A stretch of DNA of 64,000 bases from Pseudoduganella albidiflava (GTDB lineage: Bacteria; Pseudomonadota; Gammaproteobacteria; Burkholderiales; Burkholderiaceae_D). Under the pieces are notes generated by a model that worked only from the letters and a program-made list of their open reading frames with translations, did no database searches and was not told where the DNA came from. Location of the stretch: the NCBI RefSeq assembly GCF_004322755.1, contig NZ_CP036401.1:3348001-3412000 (forward strand), in the 5' to 3' direction. The position numbers and the translations under genes are program-made. This document shows, one piece after another, positions 7,961 to 18,508 of the stretch; position 1 is the first letter of the stretch; each line of letters starts with the position of its first letter.

Positions 7961-9418
7961 ATGGCGTTGTCGATCTGGATGCAGGCGCTGGGCCAGGGCG
8001 GTGCACAAGCCGCGTCGGCCCTGCGCGCCGCGCTCGGCGGCGCCGGTGTGACCGTGCGGGATGCCGCGTTTTCGACCTCCGCCTCTGCCTCTGCTTCGAC
8101 CGCTGCTTCAACCTCTGCCTCAACCTCTGCTTCAACCCCCACGGCCGCATCCATCGCCGCATCGGCGTCGGCCACCGGCTTCGGCGTGGTGCTCTGCGGC
8201 GGATGCGACGGTTCCCTGCTGCAGACCATCCAGGCGCTGGCCCTCAACGCCGCCGTGCTGGCCATCGATTGCGCGGCCGAGCCGCTGTCGCCGGACGCCA
8301 TGTGGGCGCTGCTCGAGGCGGGCGCCACCGACCTGCTGCCGTGGTCGAGCGCCGAGCTGTGCGCGCAGCAGGTCGCGGCCCGCCTGCACCGATGGGATGC
8401 ATTGCAAAAGCTGATGGGATCGCATGCCGTGCAGGGCTGCCTGGTCGGCGACAGCGCGCCCTGGCGTGCCCTGGTGCGCGGCGTGGTCGAGGTGGCGGCG
8501 TTCACCCAGTCGCCCGTGCTGATCACGGGCGAGACGGGTACCGGGAAGGACCTGATTGCCCGGCTGATCCACCGCTTGTCCGGCGCGACCGGCGAGCTGA
8601 CGGTGCTCGACTGCACCACCCTGTCGCCCGAACTGGCCGGTTCGGAACTGTTCGGCCACGAGCGCGGCGCGTTCACGGGCGCCGTCAGCGCGCGCGACGG
8701 CGCCTTCGCGATGGCCAATGGCGGCATCCTGTTCCTCGACGAAGTGGGTGAACTGCCGCTGCCGCTGCAGGCACAGCTGCTCCGAGTCATCCAGGAGCAG
8801 CAATACAAACGGATCGGCAGCAACCAGTGGCAGCCCAGCAGGTTCAGGCTCGTGTGCGCCACCAACCGCGACCTGGAGGCGGACGTCGCCACCGGCGCAT
8901 TCCGCGCCGACCTGTACTACCGGATCGCCGCGTGGCGCTGCCGCCCGCCGCCGCTGCGCGAACGGCAGGCCGACATCCTCCCGCTGGTCGACCATTTCCT
9001 GCGCCAGCTCGACCCGCAAGGCCGCGGTTGCCCGCTCGACCGGGCGGTGCGCGACTACCTGCTGACGCGCGATTACAAGGGCAATGTGCGCGACCTGCGC
9101 CAGACCGTCGCGCGCATCTGGTACCGCCACACCGGCCCCGGGCCCATCACGATCGGCGACGTGCCGCCGGACGAACGCCTGCACCGCGCCCCCGCCTGGC
9201 CCGATGCGCCCTTCTGCGACGCCATCCGCCACGCCGTCGACCGCGGCATGTCGCTGGCGCGCATCGGGCAAGCCGCCACCGACATGGCGATCCGCCTCGT
9301 GCTCGAGCAGGAAGGCGACAACAACCAGCGCGCCGCGCAACGACTCGGCGTCACGGACCGCGCCCTGCAGATCCGGCGCAAGGCCGCCCGGGAAGGCGAG
9401 ACCGAAAGCCGGAGCTAG
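7961..9418 (+). CDS. Sigma-54-dependent transcriptional activator (enhancer-binding protein)
   Basis: 485 residues from ATG 7961, preferred over the in-frame ATG 7937 and TTG 7925 because GAGG lies 5 bp upstream. The AAA+ domain has Walker A GETGTGKD (about 190-197), the sigma-54-contact loop GAFTGA (236-241) and Walker B GGILFLDE. A C-terminal Fis-type helix-turn-helix is seen at NNQRAAQRLGVTDRALQIRR. The N-terminus has no normal receiver: a Ser/Ala/Thr-rich low-complexity segment (about 37-72) leads into a receiver-like fold (LEAGATDLLPWSSAEL) without an obvious phosphoacceptor site. It probably activates the convergent eight-gene operon, whose promoter region at 18403-18508 has a sigma-54 box and paired palindromes. 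That link is inferred. Confidence 0.9.
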   Translation: MALSIWMQALGQGGAQAASALRAALGGAGVTVRDAAFSTSASASASTAASTSASTSASTPTAASIAASASATGFGVVLCGGCDGSLLQTIQALALNAAVLAIDCAAEPLSPDAMWALLEAGATDLLPWSSAELCAQQVAARLHRWDALQKLMGSHAVQGCLVGDSAPWRALVRGVVEVAAFTQSPVLITGETGTGKDLIARLIHRLSGATGELTVLDCTTLSPELAGSELFGHERGAFTGAVSARDGAFAMANGGILFLDEVGELPLPLQAQLLRVIQEQQYKRIGSNQWQPSRFRLVCATNRDLEADVATGAFRADLYYRIAAWRCRPPPLRERQADILPLVDHFLRQLDPQGRGCPLDRAVRDYLLTRDYKGNVRDLRQTVARIWYRHTGPGPITIGDVPPDERLHRAPAWPDAPFCDAIRHAVDRGMSLARIGQAATDMAIRLVLEQEGDNNQRAAQRLGVTDRALQIRRKAAREGETESRS

Positions 9419-9434
9419 CGAGCCGCCGAAAAAC

Positions 9435-9672
9435 GGTGACAGGCTCCATCTCAAAACCGGTGACAGGCTCCATTTAATTTACCCCAAGACCCAACTGCTG
9501 GGGTCAGACCCGGCGGGTCTGACCCCGGACCTTGCACTTAGGATTAGTTCGCCAAAGCGGCATCTCGAAACCGGTGACAGGCTCCATTTAATTTGCAACA
9601 TTTCCCGGAAAATGGTGCCTGTCACCGTTTTTCCTGTCGCGCCTTTAGTAATCGGAGCCTGTCACTGGTTTT
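9435..9672. repeat. Family B repeat cluster (GGTGACAGGCTCC)
   Basis: Three direct copies of GGTGACAGGCTCC (9435-9447, 9459-9471, 9573-9585), often followed by ATTTAATTT, and two inverted near-copies (GGTGCCTGTCACC 9614-9626 and GGAGCCTGTCACT 9654-9666) fill the gap between the convergent activator and amidohydrolase genes. The inverted copies can form hairpins that may end transcription from both sides. Confidence 0.85.
9481..9545. repeat. REPIN-like palindromic element, family A copy 2
   Basis: It starts with ACCCCAA at 9481 and has the core GGGGTCAGACCC (9500-9511) and GGGTCTGACCCC (9515-9526). The right end (TTGCACTTAGGAT) is degenerate compared with the TTGGGGT of other copies. It sits inside the family B cluster. 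Confidence 0.8.
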
Positions 9673-9675
9673 CCA

Positions 9676-10407
9676 TCAGCCGCGCTTGCCGATCAGGCGC
9701 AGGAAGTTCAGGCCGGTGACGAGCGCCTCGTCCTCCTTGTTCAACCCCAGCAGCCGCACCTTGTGCAGTTCCAGGCCGGGGTGCAGCCAGGGGCCGTCCG
9801 ACCCGAACAGCACCTTGTGCGGCCCGGCGCGGCGCACGGCCTCGCACAGCAGGTCGAAGCGCCGGATACCGGAGGTGTCCGTGTAGATGTTCGGATGCCG
9901 CACCAGGTGGTCGATCAGCGCGAGCTGCGACGACCACTGGTCGCCGAAGCTGCCCAGGTGCGGCAGGATGAAATCCACGTCCGGGTATTGGGTGGCCAGC
10001 AGTTCGGCCACGTGCACGTCGCCCATCGGGTCGTACAGCACGGGGATGCCGAAGGCGCGCGCGGCGTCGCAGATCTCGCCGCTGATCGGCGCGTCGTGCC
10101 GGTGTACCTTGATGCCGACGAAGCCGTACCGTTCGACAGCCGTGCGCACCATCGCGTTGATGCGGCCCCGGTCGCGCCCCGCGTGCACGAAGGCGAGCCC
10201 GTAGTAGCGCTGCGGCTGCGCGGCGACCAGGGCCGCCACGGCCTCGTTGGCGCTGGCGTAGTCGGAGTGGAACGCGGCCAGCAGCACGGTGCGGTCGATG
10301 CCCGCCTTGGCGGCGCGCCGGGTATAGCGCGCCAGGGCCAGGTCGCTGTCCCACGGCCCCGTGAGGCCGTCGCCGGGGCCGGCATGGCAATGGCAGTCGA
10401 TGATCAT
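9676..10407 (-). CDS. Amidohydrolase-family (TIM-barrel metal hydrolase) protein
   Basis: 243 residues. The metal-binding HxH motif is at the very N-terminus (MIIDCHCHAGPG). Later family motifs are GIKVHRH, a histidine in ILPHLGSFGDQW, and the aspartate in KVLFGSDGPWLHPG near the C-terminus. These are the amidohydrolase-2 signatures; substrates range from decarboxylations to lactone or amide hydrolysis. No signal peptide, so cytosolic. It begins 9 bp after the stop of the preceding glycine-zipper protein gene, so it is the last cistron of the eight-gene operon. Its place among unusual secreted-looking proteins is unexplained. Confidence 0.88.
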   Translation of the reverse strand: MIIDCHCHAGPGDGLTGPWDSDLALARYTRRAAKAGIDRTVLLAAFHSDYASANEAVAALVAAQPQRYYGLAFVHAGRDRGRINAMVRTAVERYGFVGIKVHRHDAPISGEICDAARAFGIPVLYDPMGDVHVAELLATQYPDVDFILPHLGSFGDQWSSQLALIDHLVRHPNIYTDTSGIRRFDLLCEAVRRAGPHKVLFGSDGPWLHPGLELHKVRLLGLNKEDEALVTGLNFLRLIGKRG

Positions 10408-10416
10408 CGCGCCACG

Positions 10417-17740: not shown

Positions 17741-18352
17741 CTACAAATCGATCACCTGGATGCGCCGGCCCCGCCGCCGCCAGTTGCCGGACAGCGGCGC
17801 GGCGGCACGCTGCCGCAGCAGCCCCGGCGCATTGCGGCGCGCGGCCTGCATCAGGCCCTGCTGCGTGGCCTGCCCGGCTGGCTGGCCCACCCGCGCCAGC
17901 GCCTGCCGCGTGGCATCCACGGCCAGCCGCACGAACTGCCGGGCCACCTCGAATTCCTTGTCCTCGGGCGACAGGCCTTCCAGCTCCAGCCCGAACACGC
18001 CGGCAGCCTTGCGTTTCAGGTCGGCCGGGGCGCGCGTGGCGTCCAGCGGAAAGACCATTCGGGCGGCGCGATGCAGCACACGCAGGACCGGTTCGCGCAA
18101 GGCACGCTGCCGCGTATCCGTGGCCGGCCCGACGAGATCGGCCAGCACCGGCGCCAGCTCATCGGCCGTGCGCGCCTCCAGCAAACGCGCGGCGAAATCC
18201 AGTTCGCCGAATTCGCCGCCGCCAATGCGGTCGGGCCATGGCGCCTGCGCTTCCCCGTCGGACGGCAACTCCAGTTCGGGCTTGAAGTCGAGCAGGCGGC
18301 GGTCGGCCGGTCCCTGCCAGGCAATCCGTGAGACGGCAAGTCGGTGGTCCAT
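17741..18352 (-). CDS. Divergent paralogue of the glycine-zipper proteins, first gene of the operon
   Basis: 203 residues from ATG 18352, preferred over 18388 because GGGGAG lies 7 bp upstream. It keeps the outline of the family: an acidic start, a helical core (FGELDFAARLLEARTADELAPVLADL) matching the ELLSV...ELDQFLG part of its relatives, the segment GLELEGLSPEDKEFEVARQF, and the C-terminal motif GNWRRRGRRIQVIDL. The glycine-zipper is missing and replaced by a basic helical stretch. It may be a chaperone, adaptor or antagonist of the other two, but this is speculation. A sigma-54 promoter is predicted about 50 bp upstream of its start codon. Confidence 0.78.
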   Translation of the reverse strand: MDHRLAVSRIAWQGPADRRLLDFKPELELPSDGEAQAPWPDRIGGGEFGELDFAARLLEARTADELAPVLADLVGPATDTRQRALREPVLRVLHRAARMVFPLDATRAPADLKRKAAGVFGLELEGLSPEDKEFEVARQFVRLAVDATRQALARVGQPAGQATQQGLMQAARRNAPGLLRQRAAAPLSGNWRRRGRRIQVIDL

Positions 18353-18402
18353 GGCGGGCTCCCCGTGGAGTGCGGCCCGATGCCGCACGTACCACGGGTA
18401 AG

Positions 18403-18419
18403 TGCAAGCGCCATGCCAG
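18403..18419 (-). promoter_or_regulatory. Sigma-54 (RpoN) -24/-12 promoter
   Basis: On the minus strand the sequence reads CTGGCATG, four bases (GCGC), TTGCA. This fits the RpoN consensus YTGGCACG-N4-TTGCW with a single change and exact spacing. It predicts a start of transcription near 18392, giving a leader of about 40 nt before the ATG at 18352. A sigma-54 activator gene lies at the other end of the same operon. Confidence 0.72.
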
Positions 18420-18448
18420 GCGTTTCCGGGGAGGCGATGCCGCAGTAG

Positions 18449-18508
18449 GGCGAAAATGGCTTCGCCCCGCGGCGGGCGCGGGGCGAAATCGGCGAAACGG
18501 GGTTCGCC
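18449..18508. promoter_or_regulatory. Paired palindromes, candidate enhancer (UAS) for the sigma-54 activator
   Basis: Two copies of GGCGAA-N6-TTCGCC occur at 18449-18466 and 18491-18508. Their centres are 42 bp apart, four turns of B-DNA, so both face the same side. They lie about 65 and 107 bp upstream of the predicted start, where enhancer sites of sigma-54 activators usually are. A larger inverted repeat between them (TTCGCCCCG 18461-18469 with CGGGGCGAA 18479-18487) could also act as a terminator for the dioxygenase gene, though no T-run follows. Confidence 0.62.

Follow-up and report, generated by a model that had tools for sequence, protein, structure and literature searches.

The genome of Pseudoduganella albidiflava (GCF_004322755.1) carries an operon of eight closely packed genes, g1 to g8, with the gene of a sigma-54 activator convergent to its far end. 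In our reading, which we consider plausible and still tentative, this operon is a self-contained effector system under a sigma-54 switch, and its products would reach other bacteria by release or delivery and attack them. The operon lies in the window analysed here, that is, the whole stretch of 64,000 nt from contig NZ_CP036401.1 (3,348,001-3,412,000, forward strand), and coordinates are window positions unless a locus is named. In a limited search of the titles and opening abstract lines of open PubMed Central (PMC), with subscription papers and bioRxiv outside the scope, we found no paper describing the cluster and no described system with its g2-g3-g4 core. The features are as follows.

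18493..18506: distal palindrome CGAA-N6-TTCG, predicted activator site (palindrome count across relatives)
18451..18464: proximal palindrome CGAA-N6-TTCG, 42 bp from the distal copy (palindrome count across relatives)
18404..18418, minus strand: predicted sigma-54 -24/-12 promoter, TGGCATGGCGCTTGC (motif scan and conservation in loci)
17741..18352, minus strand: g1, first zipper-family paralogue, 203 aa, ATG start
16857..17594, minus strand: g2, main glycine-zipper protein, 245 aa, MHDIDRTT start, acidic N-terminus
15463..16851, minus strand: g3, predicted zinc metallopeptidase, HEVGH 191-195 and E234xxAD238
13234..15453, minus strand: g4, 739 aa, CnaB/prealbumin-like N-terminal beta domains and a very conserved helical C-terminal domain
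12171..13226, minus strand: g5, BioF-like pyridoxal phosphate (PLP) enzyme, K204 invariant
11173..12174, minus strand: g6, N-terminal FETLPF motif, Pro/Arg/Gly-rich linker, C-terminal GIY-YIG domain
10417..11124, minus strand: g7, third zipper-family paralogue, 235 aa, N-terminal CxCxxC and FEVLPF motifs
9676..10407, minus strand: g8, amidohydrolase (PF04909), conserved H6, H8, H150 and D204
7961..9418, plus strand: sigma-54 enhancer-binding activator, receiver-like N-terminus, convergent with the operon

When the list of open reading frames (ORFs) was re-read, the eight minus-strand ORFs between 9676 and 18352 were found at the positions that an earlier note on this DNA had given. Its gaps of 146, 5, 9, 7, -4 and 9 bp also stand, and the remaining one, between g6 and g7, measures 60 bp if g7 starts at the in-frame ATG at 11112 and 48 bp if it starts at the ATG of 11124. 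Pfam and NCBIfam put names to three of the eight genes, namely g8, g5 and, weakly, g6. None of g1-g4, g6 and g7 of the window reaches any Pfam or NCBIfam cut-off (g1, g2, g3 and g7 yield nothing at that level), and alignments of g2, g3 and g4 match no PDB chain below E 0.1.

The genes stay together in distant relatives. A contig scan confirmed 112 loci with relatives of g4, and the 80 that were kept, a set selected by g4, come from Pseudomonadota, Nitrospirota, Acidobacteriota, Bacteroidota, Chloroflexota and Schekmaniibacteriota, several of them from metagenome bins. g3 lies immediately before g4 in 75 of the 76 loci having g3, and this adjacency extends to Nitrospirota, Acidobacteriota, Bacteroidota and Schekmaniibacteriota. 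Among the 62 loci with 3 kb of upstream and 8 kb of downstream flank, g3 is present in 62, the BioF-like gene in 59, the amidohydrolase gene in 56 and the activator gene in 61, and zipper genes stand upstream of g4 in 62 and downstream in 53. The activator gene is convergent with the operon in 60 of these 61 loci; in the exception (L082, Schekmaniibacteriota), the sole activator match is a plus-strand gene approximately 9 kb downstream. Wherever the five core genes were all found, their order is kept (54/54). Because the locus set had been chosen by g4, independent g4 and g3 profiles were also run on 299 genomes of the phylum, and both matched the same three genomes, side by side and with the window's own included (one of the three g3 matches reads over a TGA). 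The conserved co-occurrence for which the earlier note had proposed a test is borne out, and the unlinking in relatives that it had named beforehand as counting against it was not seen. Its picture of one operon is supported. The complete set of eight is not found everywhere: the BioF-like gene, the GIY-YIG gene, the third zipper gene and the amidohydrolase gene are each absent from some loci. A short Chloroflexota contig (3.4 kb) carries g4 and the BioF-like gene only.

The families themselves are widespread. Among 8000 candidates scored, the window proteins found 1324 homologues of g4 (E 0.001) and 2465 of g2; with a distant g4 as the query, 5435 of 8000 matched, under names including Blastocatellia, Gemmataceae and Thauera. 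Within the bacterial family of the window, g4 occurs in 24 of 195 genomes and in 5 of 44 genera. Four plasmid records match g4, including an Ensifer plasmid with all eight families and the activator, a Rhizobium plasmid missing the amidohydrolase, and a Paraburkholderia plasmid with a reduced version (zipper, g3, g4, an unassigned region, g8 and activator). A phage origin of g4 was rejected, with no match in 50,697 records, and PHROGs profiles run on g1-g4, g6 and g7 gave two weak matches, both to g7.

The regulatory sites ahead of g1 are conserved as well. The minus-strand sequence TGGCATGGCGCTTGC (18418-18404) has one mismatch to TGGCAC-N5-TTGC. We did not accept this match by itself as evidence, as the window holds 75 sites at two mismatches or fewer versus 95 expected. 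In the relatives, the surroundings of the first gene, 650 bp at most, were searched in 69 loci (11 of the 80, without g3, an upstream zipper gene or sequence, were left out). A perfect TGGCAY-N5-TTGC was found in 48 of the 69, compared with 0.67% of 4032 control windows, and 17 further loci match at 9 of 10 positions (5.5% of the controls); the RpoN promoter predicted earlier upstream of the operon is thus upheld. Additionally, a count of palindromes upstream of the operon in 58 sequences, window included, ranked GCGAA-N6-TTCGC first, with 39 sequences sharing it, whereas the best palindrome in five shuffles was common to just 2. Within 220 bp upstream of the promoter, all 57 loci have at least one CGAA-N6-TTCG and 55 have two, while 37 of 5017 control windows contain one. 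The centres of the two copies are 42 bp apart in 51 loci and 41 bp apart in 4.

Because the palindrome pattern had been derived from the same loci in which it was first counted, a whole-genome search for the paired pattern served as the test, in genomes that may include some species of the discovery loci. The pair was found in 22 of 24 carriers in the family versus 4 of 171 non-carriers. Each of the 22 has one match, lying 2.5 to 3.3 kb before g4 in 20 and on a contig other than that of g4 in the remaining 2. Two carriers were missed: an assembly of 80% completeness in which g4 is divided between contigs, and a genome whose g4 contig of 3809 bases stops before the promoter. Across the phylum, the pair occurs in 3 of 3 carriers, at the operon, and in 4 of 296 non-carriers. 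The window genome likewise has a single paired match. With one such match per genome, the activator appears to have one target. Single GCGAA-N6-TTCGC sites number 120 in this genome compared with 13 for the reversed control; many of them belong to an unrelated dispersed palindrome, GCGAAGCATGCTTCGC (for example at 36941-36956), and for this reason only the pair is informative.

The activator matches the sigma-54 interaction domain (PF00158, 2e-56), the columns of its GAFTGA motif are 95-100% conserved in a 67-row alignment, and its gene at 7961-9418 lies tail to tail with the operon, as had been claimed. Its N-terminal 150 residues have no obvious conserved phospho-acceptor, and we read them as receiver-like. 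A Ser/Ala/Thr-rich low-complexity stretch (8066-8176) lies between the start and this part. Operons of sigma-54 enhancer-binding proteins have an activator, two tandem upstream sites and a -24/-12 promoter. The present operon resembles them in all three, and it differs in that the activator has apparently one target per genome, a convergent position and targets without named families. Beyond the earlier note, we have paired palindromes and a promoter conserved across loci. Collectively, the linkage of the genes and the conservation of their regulatory sites are established at the level of sequence, the palindromes are candidate activator-binding sites, and the operon is predicted to depend on RpoN and on the activator.

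For the core proteins, the alignments suggest several activities. A search with g2 in its own genome finds g7 at 2.6e-24 and g1 at 4.1e-10, so that g1, g2 and g7 (203, 245 and 235 aa) are the three related proteins that the earlier note had described. Many g7 proteins begin with a CxCxxC cluster (11071-11100 in the window), which is possibly metal-binding; a similar cluster occurs in a cargo protein of locus L098. The zinc motif of M48 metallopeptidases consists of HExxH and ExxAD. In g3, H191, E192, H195, E234 and D238 are invariant in 35 rows, and what had been called an HExxH peptidase-like protein can be refined to a gluzincin-type HEVGH...ExxAD protein, a predicted M48-like metallopeptidase. 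Foldseek gave no fold match for g3 at E 0.001, which we take as no sign of a new fold. The C-terminal model of g4 is mostly too weak for a fold search and gives no basis for calling its fold new; this helical domain is very conserved and has no family match. The N-terminal beta domains of g4 are CnaB/pilin-like, with a weak prealbumin-like hint in Pfam, in agreement with the Cna-B-like start assigned before. Many named g4 homologues in public databases are labelled 8-amino-7-oxononanoate synthase, apparently a transferred name; g4 as a biotin enzyme was rejected, since the window g4 matches no such domain.

Of the two putative small-molecule enzymes, g5 matches Aminotran_1_2 (1.2e-06) and the bioF model (5e-18), its PLP lysine K204 is invariant in the alignment, and its bioF score is 65 bits versus a curated cut-off of 426. 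Membership of the superfamily therefore stands and the biotin enzyme, 8-amino-7-oxononanoate synthase, does not; by these scores g5 is a superfamily member only. g8 matches Amidohydro_2 (PF04909) at 5.3e-17, in line with the amidohydrolase of the earlier note.

The GIY-YIG domain of g6 falls below the Pfam gathering score (E 0.077, 13.7 bits versus 22.6). The catalytic columns of GIY-YIG nucleases are GxY, YxG, Arg, His and Glu. In 32 aligned g6 rows, G242, Y244, Y257, G259, R267, H271 and E303 each make up 100% of the letters, so the GIY-YIG-like assignment gains support and nuclease activity is predicted. A profile clear of zipper domains, used after a first iteration contaminated via fused ORFs had been discarded, found 55 such domains; GxY..YxG..Arg is kept in 55, His in 51 and a Glu at a fitting distance in 55. 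The domain occurs in 50 of 80 loci and lies downstream of the BioF-like gene in 48 of 73. A zipper domain is fused to it in 9 of the 55 ORFs, and 35 of the remaining 46 have a zipper ORF no more than 250 bp away.

Larger versions of the operon contain extra genes, mainly between the BioF-like gene and the amidohydrolase gene. From loci L045-L084 we listed 70 cargo ORFs, two of them judged outside the operon and some probably miscalled, as the simple gene caller overextends starts and missed or mislabelled genes. The Pfam scan covered 58 proteins, comprising 57 of the 70 ORFs (13 near-copies or doubtful ORFs were omitted) and the window g6. It found PG_binding_1 in 17, Amidase_2 in 8, M20 peptidase, Trypsin_2 and PG_binding_3 in 6 each, OmpA in 4, GIY-YIG in 3, VanY and NlpC/P60 in 2 each, and Muramidase, Beta-lactamase2 and Extensin-like_C in 1 each. 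The three GIY-YIG matches are those at 1e-3, and the L049 protein rises above the cut-off (24 bits) when scanned singly. In a control of 59 genes, nearly all from the flanks of about a dozen loci and including one zipper gene, no such wall family matches more than one gene, with families of one match not all listed. Amidase_2 and GIY-YIG are joined in one protein in L045, L049, L053, L069 and L073. Among the putative effectors found, the commonest type carries a GIY-YIG nuclease domain.

Some cargo proteins begin with an acidic stretch around FExxPF. This pattern was chosen after inspection of the proteins, with shuffles and flank genes as controls, and was counted in 68 cargo ORFs (2 of the 70 omitted). 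The strict form starts 19 of 31 g6 proteins, 9 of the 68 other cargo ORFs (0.24 expected from shuffles) and 4 of 74 g7 proteins, compared with 1 of 631 flank ORFs; it is absent from 73 BioF-like, 76 g3, 74 g2 and 80 g4 proteins. A looser form is found in 20 of 68 cargo ORFs (4.1 expected) and in 12 of 631 flank ORFs (13.6 expected), and among the loci read later, a cargo protein of L087 has it (FNPEPF). In a crude test, a hydrophobic run near the start was seen in 2 of 68 cargo ORFs versus 112 of 631 flank ORFs. Separately, locus L095 carries the gene of an exporter with both Peptidase_C39 and ABC domains between the activator and g8 (4114-9505), together with what by eye are a membrane-fusion-like protein and a double-glycine-leader-like peptide; this insertion is a bacteriocin-type cluster.

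The operon occupies a site that is empty in many relatives. Of 31 genomes of the window genus, all 31 have the Orn/Lys/Arg decarboxylase gene of one flank (PF01276), 29 have the dioxygenase-like gene of the opposite flank (PF00775, 2.6e-06), and 10 have g3. Of the 21 genomes that lack g3, 20 have the flanking genes at a distance of 86 bp (L094, the shortest empty site) to 4.4 kb, and one has them on separate contigs; three longer empty sites (L091-L093) hold other ORFs with no match to the operon families. Seven carriers could be measured, and there g3 lies between flanks separated by 9.1 to 18.4 kb; in the three remaining carriers, the distance from g3 to the decarboxylase gene is 7.1 to 10.5 kb. 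Within the genus, this pattern suggests mostly one site with repeated loss. In the g4 tree, four Nitrospira rows are nested inside Pseudomonadota (fork 100/98), two other Nitrospirota rows fall outside, Methylococcaceae stand among Nitrosomonas, and Microvirga is grouped with Lautropia and Limnobacter. The tree fits transfer of the operon between distant groups, with some contigs possibly misbinned.

Several further observations concern the surroundings. Between the dioxygenase-like flank and the operon, L096 contains a DUF1501 and DUF1800 pair (1026-8644), and L013 contains a gene pair that is similar by eye (3516-6769). In the window, the interval between the convergent g8 and activator genes (9434-9675) holds GGTGACAGGCTCCAT-type units repeated in both orientations beside an inverted repeat GGGGTCAGACCC...GGGTCTGACCCC, and the interval between the decarboxylase and activator genes (7390-7805) holds repeated GTGTCGGACACC-type palindromes and a further GGGGTCAGACCC...GGGTCTGACCCC inverted repeat. 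No known structured RNA was found at gathering score.

Taken as an effector operon, the system might work in the following way. The convergent activator would bind the two CGAA-N6-TTCG palindromes (41-42 bp apart) and open the -24/-12 promoter ahead of g1. The operon would then yield the glycine-zipper proteins g1, g2 and g7, the M48-like g3, the CnaB-fronted g4 and exchangeable effectors, as well as two small-molecule-type enzymes, g5 and g8. The effectors would comprise the GIY-YIG nuclease (g6 here); in relatives, domains of the wall amidase, peptidoglycan-binding, carboxypeptidase, muramidase or protease type are found in addition. The zippers would take the nuclease through the membrane of the target, and maturation or export of the cargo would fall to the g3/g4 core. 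The parts that suit this reading are zipper proteins of presumed membrane activity, a nuclease next to them or fused with them, wall hydrolases in relatives, a scarcity of Sec-like signals, a peptidase and g4 that accompany them in the loci seen, and a switch with apparently one target. Here we infer delivery and the killing of other bacteria. Of the two functions that the earlier note had suggested, maturation and delivery would fit the sequences, and self-assembly is without direct support.

A precedent for the role of the zippers is Tde1, a DNase effector of the type VI secretion system (T6SS) with adaptor Tap1, whose glycine zipper permeabilises the target membrane (PMC10240207). By this example, a zipper can serve a nuclease in membrane passage; the nuclease joined to a glycine zipper in Tde1 is comparable to the 9 GIY-zipper fusions here. 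In contrast to Tde1, the present operon is found in genomes without a TssB match and its nuclease domain is GIY-YIG. GIY-YIG is mentioned in papers on T6SS effectors, and the shared idea is a possible antibacterial effector domain; the present cluster differs in that it contains no T6SS gene and has its own conserved core and promoter.

Several findings weigh against an attack on other bacteria. Family scans of the window genes recognised no export apparatus in the operon, and its gaps of at most 146 bp are too short to hold a separate immunity gene without overlap. The M20 peptidase, the BioF-like enzyme and the amidohydrolase are unexplained by killing. GIY-YIG was not found in 30 of 80 loci, some of them short contigs, and the strict FExxPF is missing in 59 of 68 non-g6 cargo ORFs and in the L098 cargo read later. 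Moreover, TssB is present in all 23 Oxalobacteraceae carriers tested, the window's genome included, and the use of a T6SS in this host is therefore possible.

A more specific proposal, which we consider doubtful, is that the zipper-g3-g4 core forms a new non-contractile effector-delivery machine, independent of Sec and the T6SS, that would recognise its cargo by a short acidic N-terminal tag of the FExxPF type, move nuclease and wall hydrolases through the envelope of target cells, and have spread between phyla as a single cassette with a switch of its own.

Pfam and NCBIfam scans found no T6SS structural gene in the window's cluster. In 34 hand-chosen carriers (G307 left out), TssB (PF05591) was found in 25, with no match in 9, including the 100%-complete, single-contig G246 and all four Nitrosomonas tested; a T6SS as a general requirement was rejected on these 9. 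Similarly, the phage sheath PF04984 matches in 25 of the 34 (22 over cut-off) and not in 9, G246 among them, which also removes a contractile sheath, as in extracellular contractile injection systems or tailocins, as a general requirement.

Because no export machine is recognised, no immunity gene fits and the metabolic enzymes are unexplained, programmed self-lysis is a serious rival, if on balance an unlikely one. Here the zippers would damage the cell's own membrane, the hydrolases would open its wall and the nuclease would cut its own DNA, with dispersal, matrix DNA or release as the outcome. The relatives' wall hydrolases, which have no signal-like starts, and a switch that has a single paired site in each of the 22 family genomes with the pair and g4 are consistent with it, as is the lack of space for a separate immunity gene. 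However, the window operon itself has no wall hydrolase recognised by Pfam or NCBIfam, and the zipper paralogues, peptidase, BioF-like enzyme and amidohydrolase exceed what lysis needs.

A bacteriocin-like system, in which the zippers are the toxins, g3 removes their acidic leader and g5 and g8 modify them, appears quite unlikely to us. It would resemble the Cdz system of Caulobacter minus type I secretion. According to PMC5380434, the glycine-zipper toxins of Cdz have 84 and 86 aa, are exported by a type I secretion system and kill on contact, and Cdz-like systems have a patchy, probably transferred distribution. Glycine-zipper proteins are likewise central and the distribution patchy here; a zipper gene precedes g4 in 62/62 loci, and the M48-like motif of g3 is conserved. 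By comparison with Cdz, however, the zippers here have 203-245 aa and are not small (5-10 kDa), and a peptidase, g4, a nuclease and a sigma-54 switch are added. The eight genes and the activator, which fill the stretch, match no type I secretion family, leaving the operon without a type I secretion gene, and the nuclease and wall cargo would be left unexplained.

Structural remodelling of the envelope, with the acidic zippers and g4 forming a surface or internal assembly that wall-binding domains anchor, is improbable: the CnaB/pilin-like N-terminal domain of g4 and the PG_binding and OmpA domains in relatives would suit it, whereas conserved nuclease residues and hydrolytic domains are ill-suited to a pure scaffold. 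An anti-phage or abortive-infection system is very improbable; the patchy distribution (24/195 family genomes), the nuclease and the resemblance of the activator's AAA part to RtcR-type models speak for it, whereas g1-g8 have no PADLOC match below 1e-3 and the activator's matches begin at residue 154 or later, in an AAA part common to such activators, and with only these and weak g7 matches in PADLOC we rejected filing the operon as a defence system.

Homologues of g2 and of g4 run into the thousands, and neither protein of the window reaches a Pfam or NCBIfam cut-off. With one activator, two palindromes and one promoter, the predicted switch is simple and testable, so that induction of this one operon would offer a way to its function. 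If the operon does deliver nucleases and wall hydrolases, it would constitute an antagonism system in nitrifiers, methanotrophs and betaproteobacteria of soil and water, and surveys that start from known secretion systems would overlook it.

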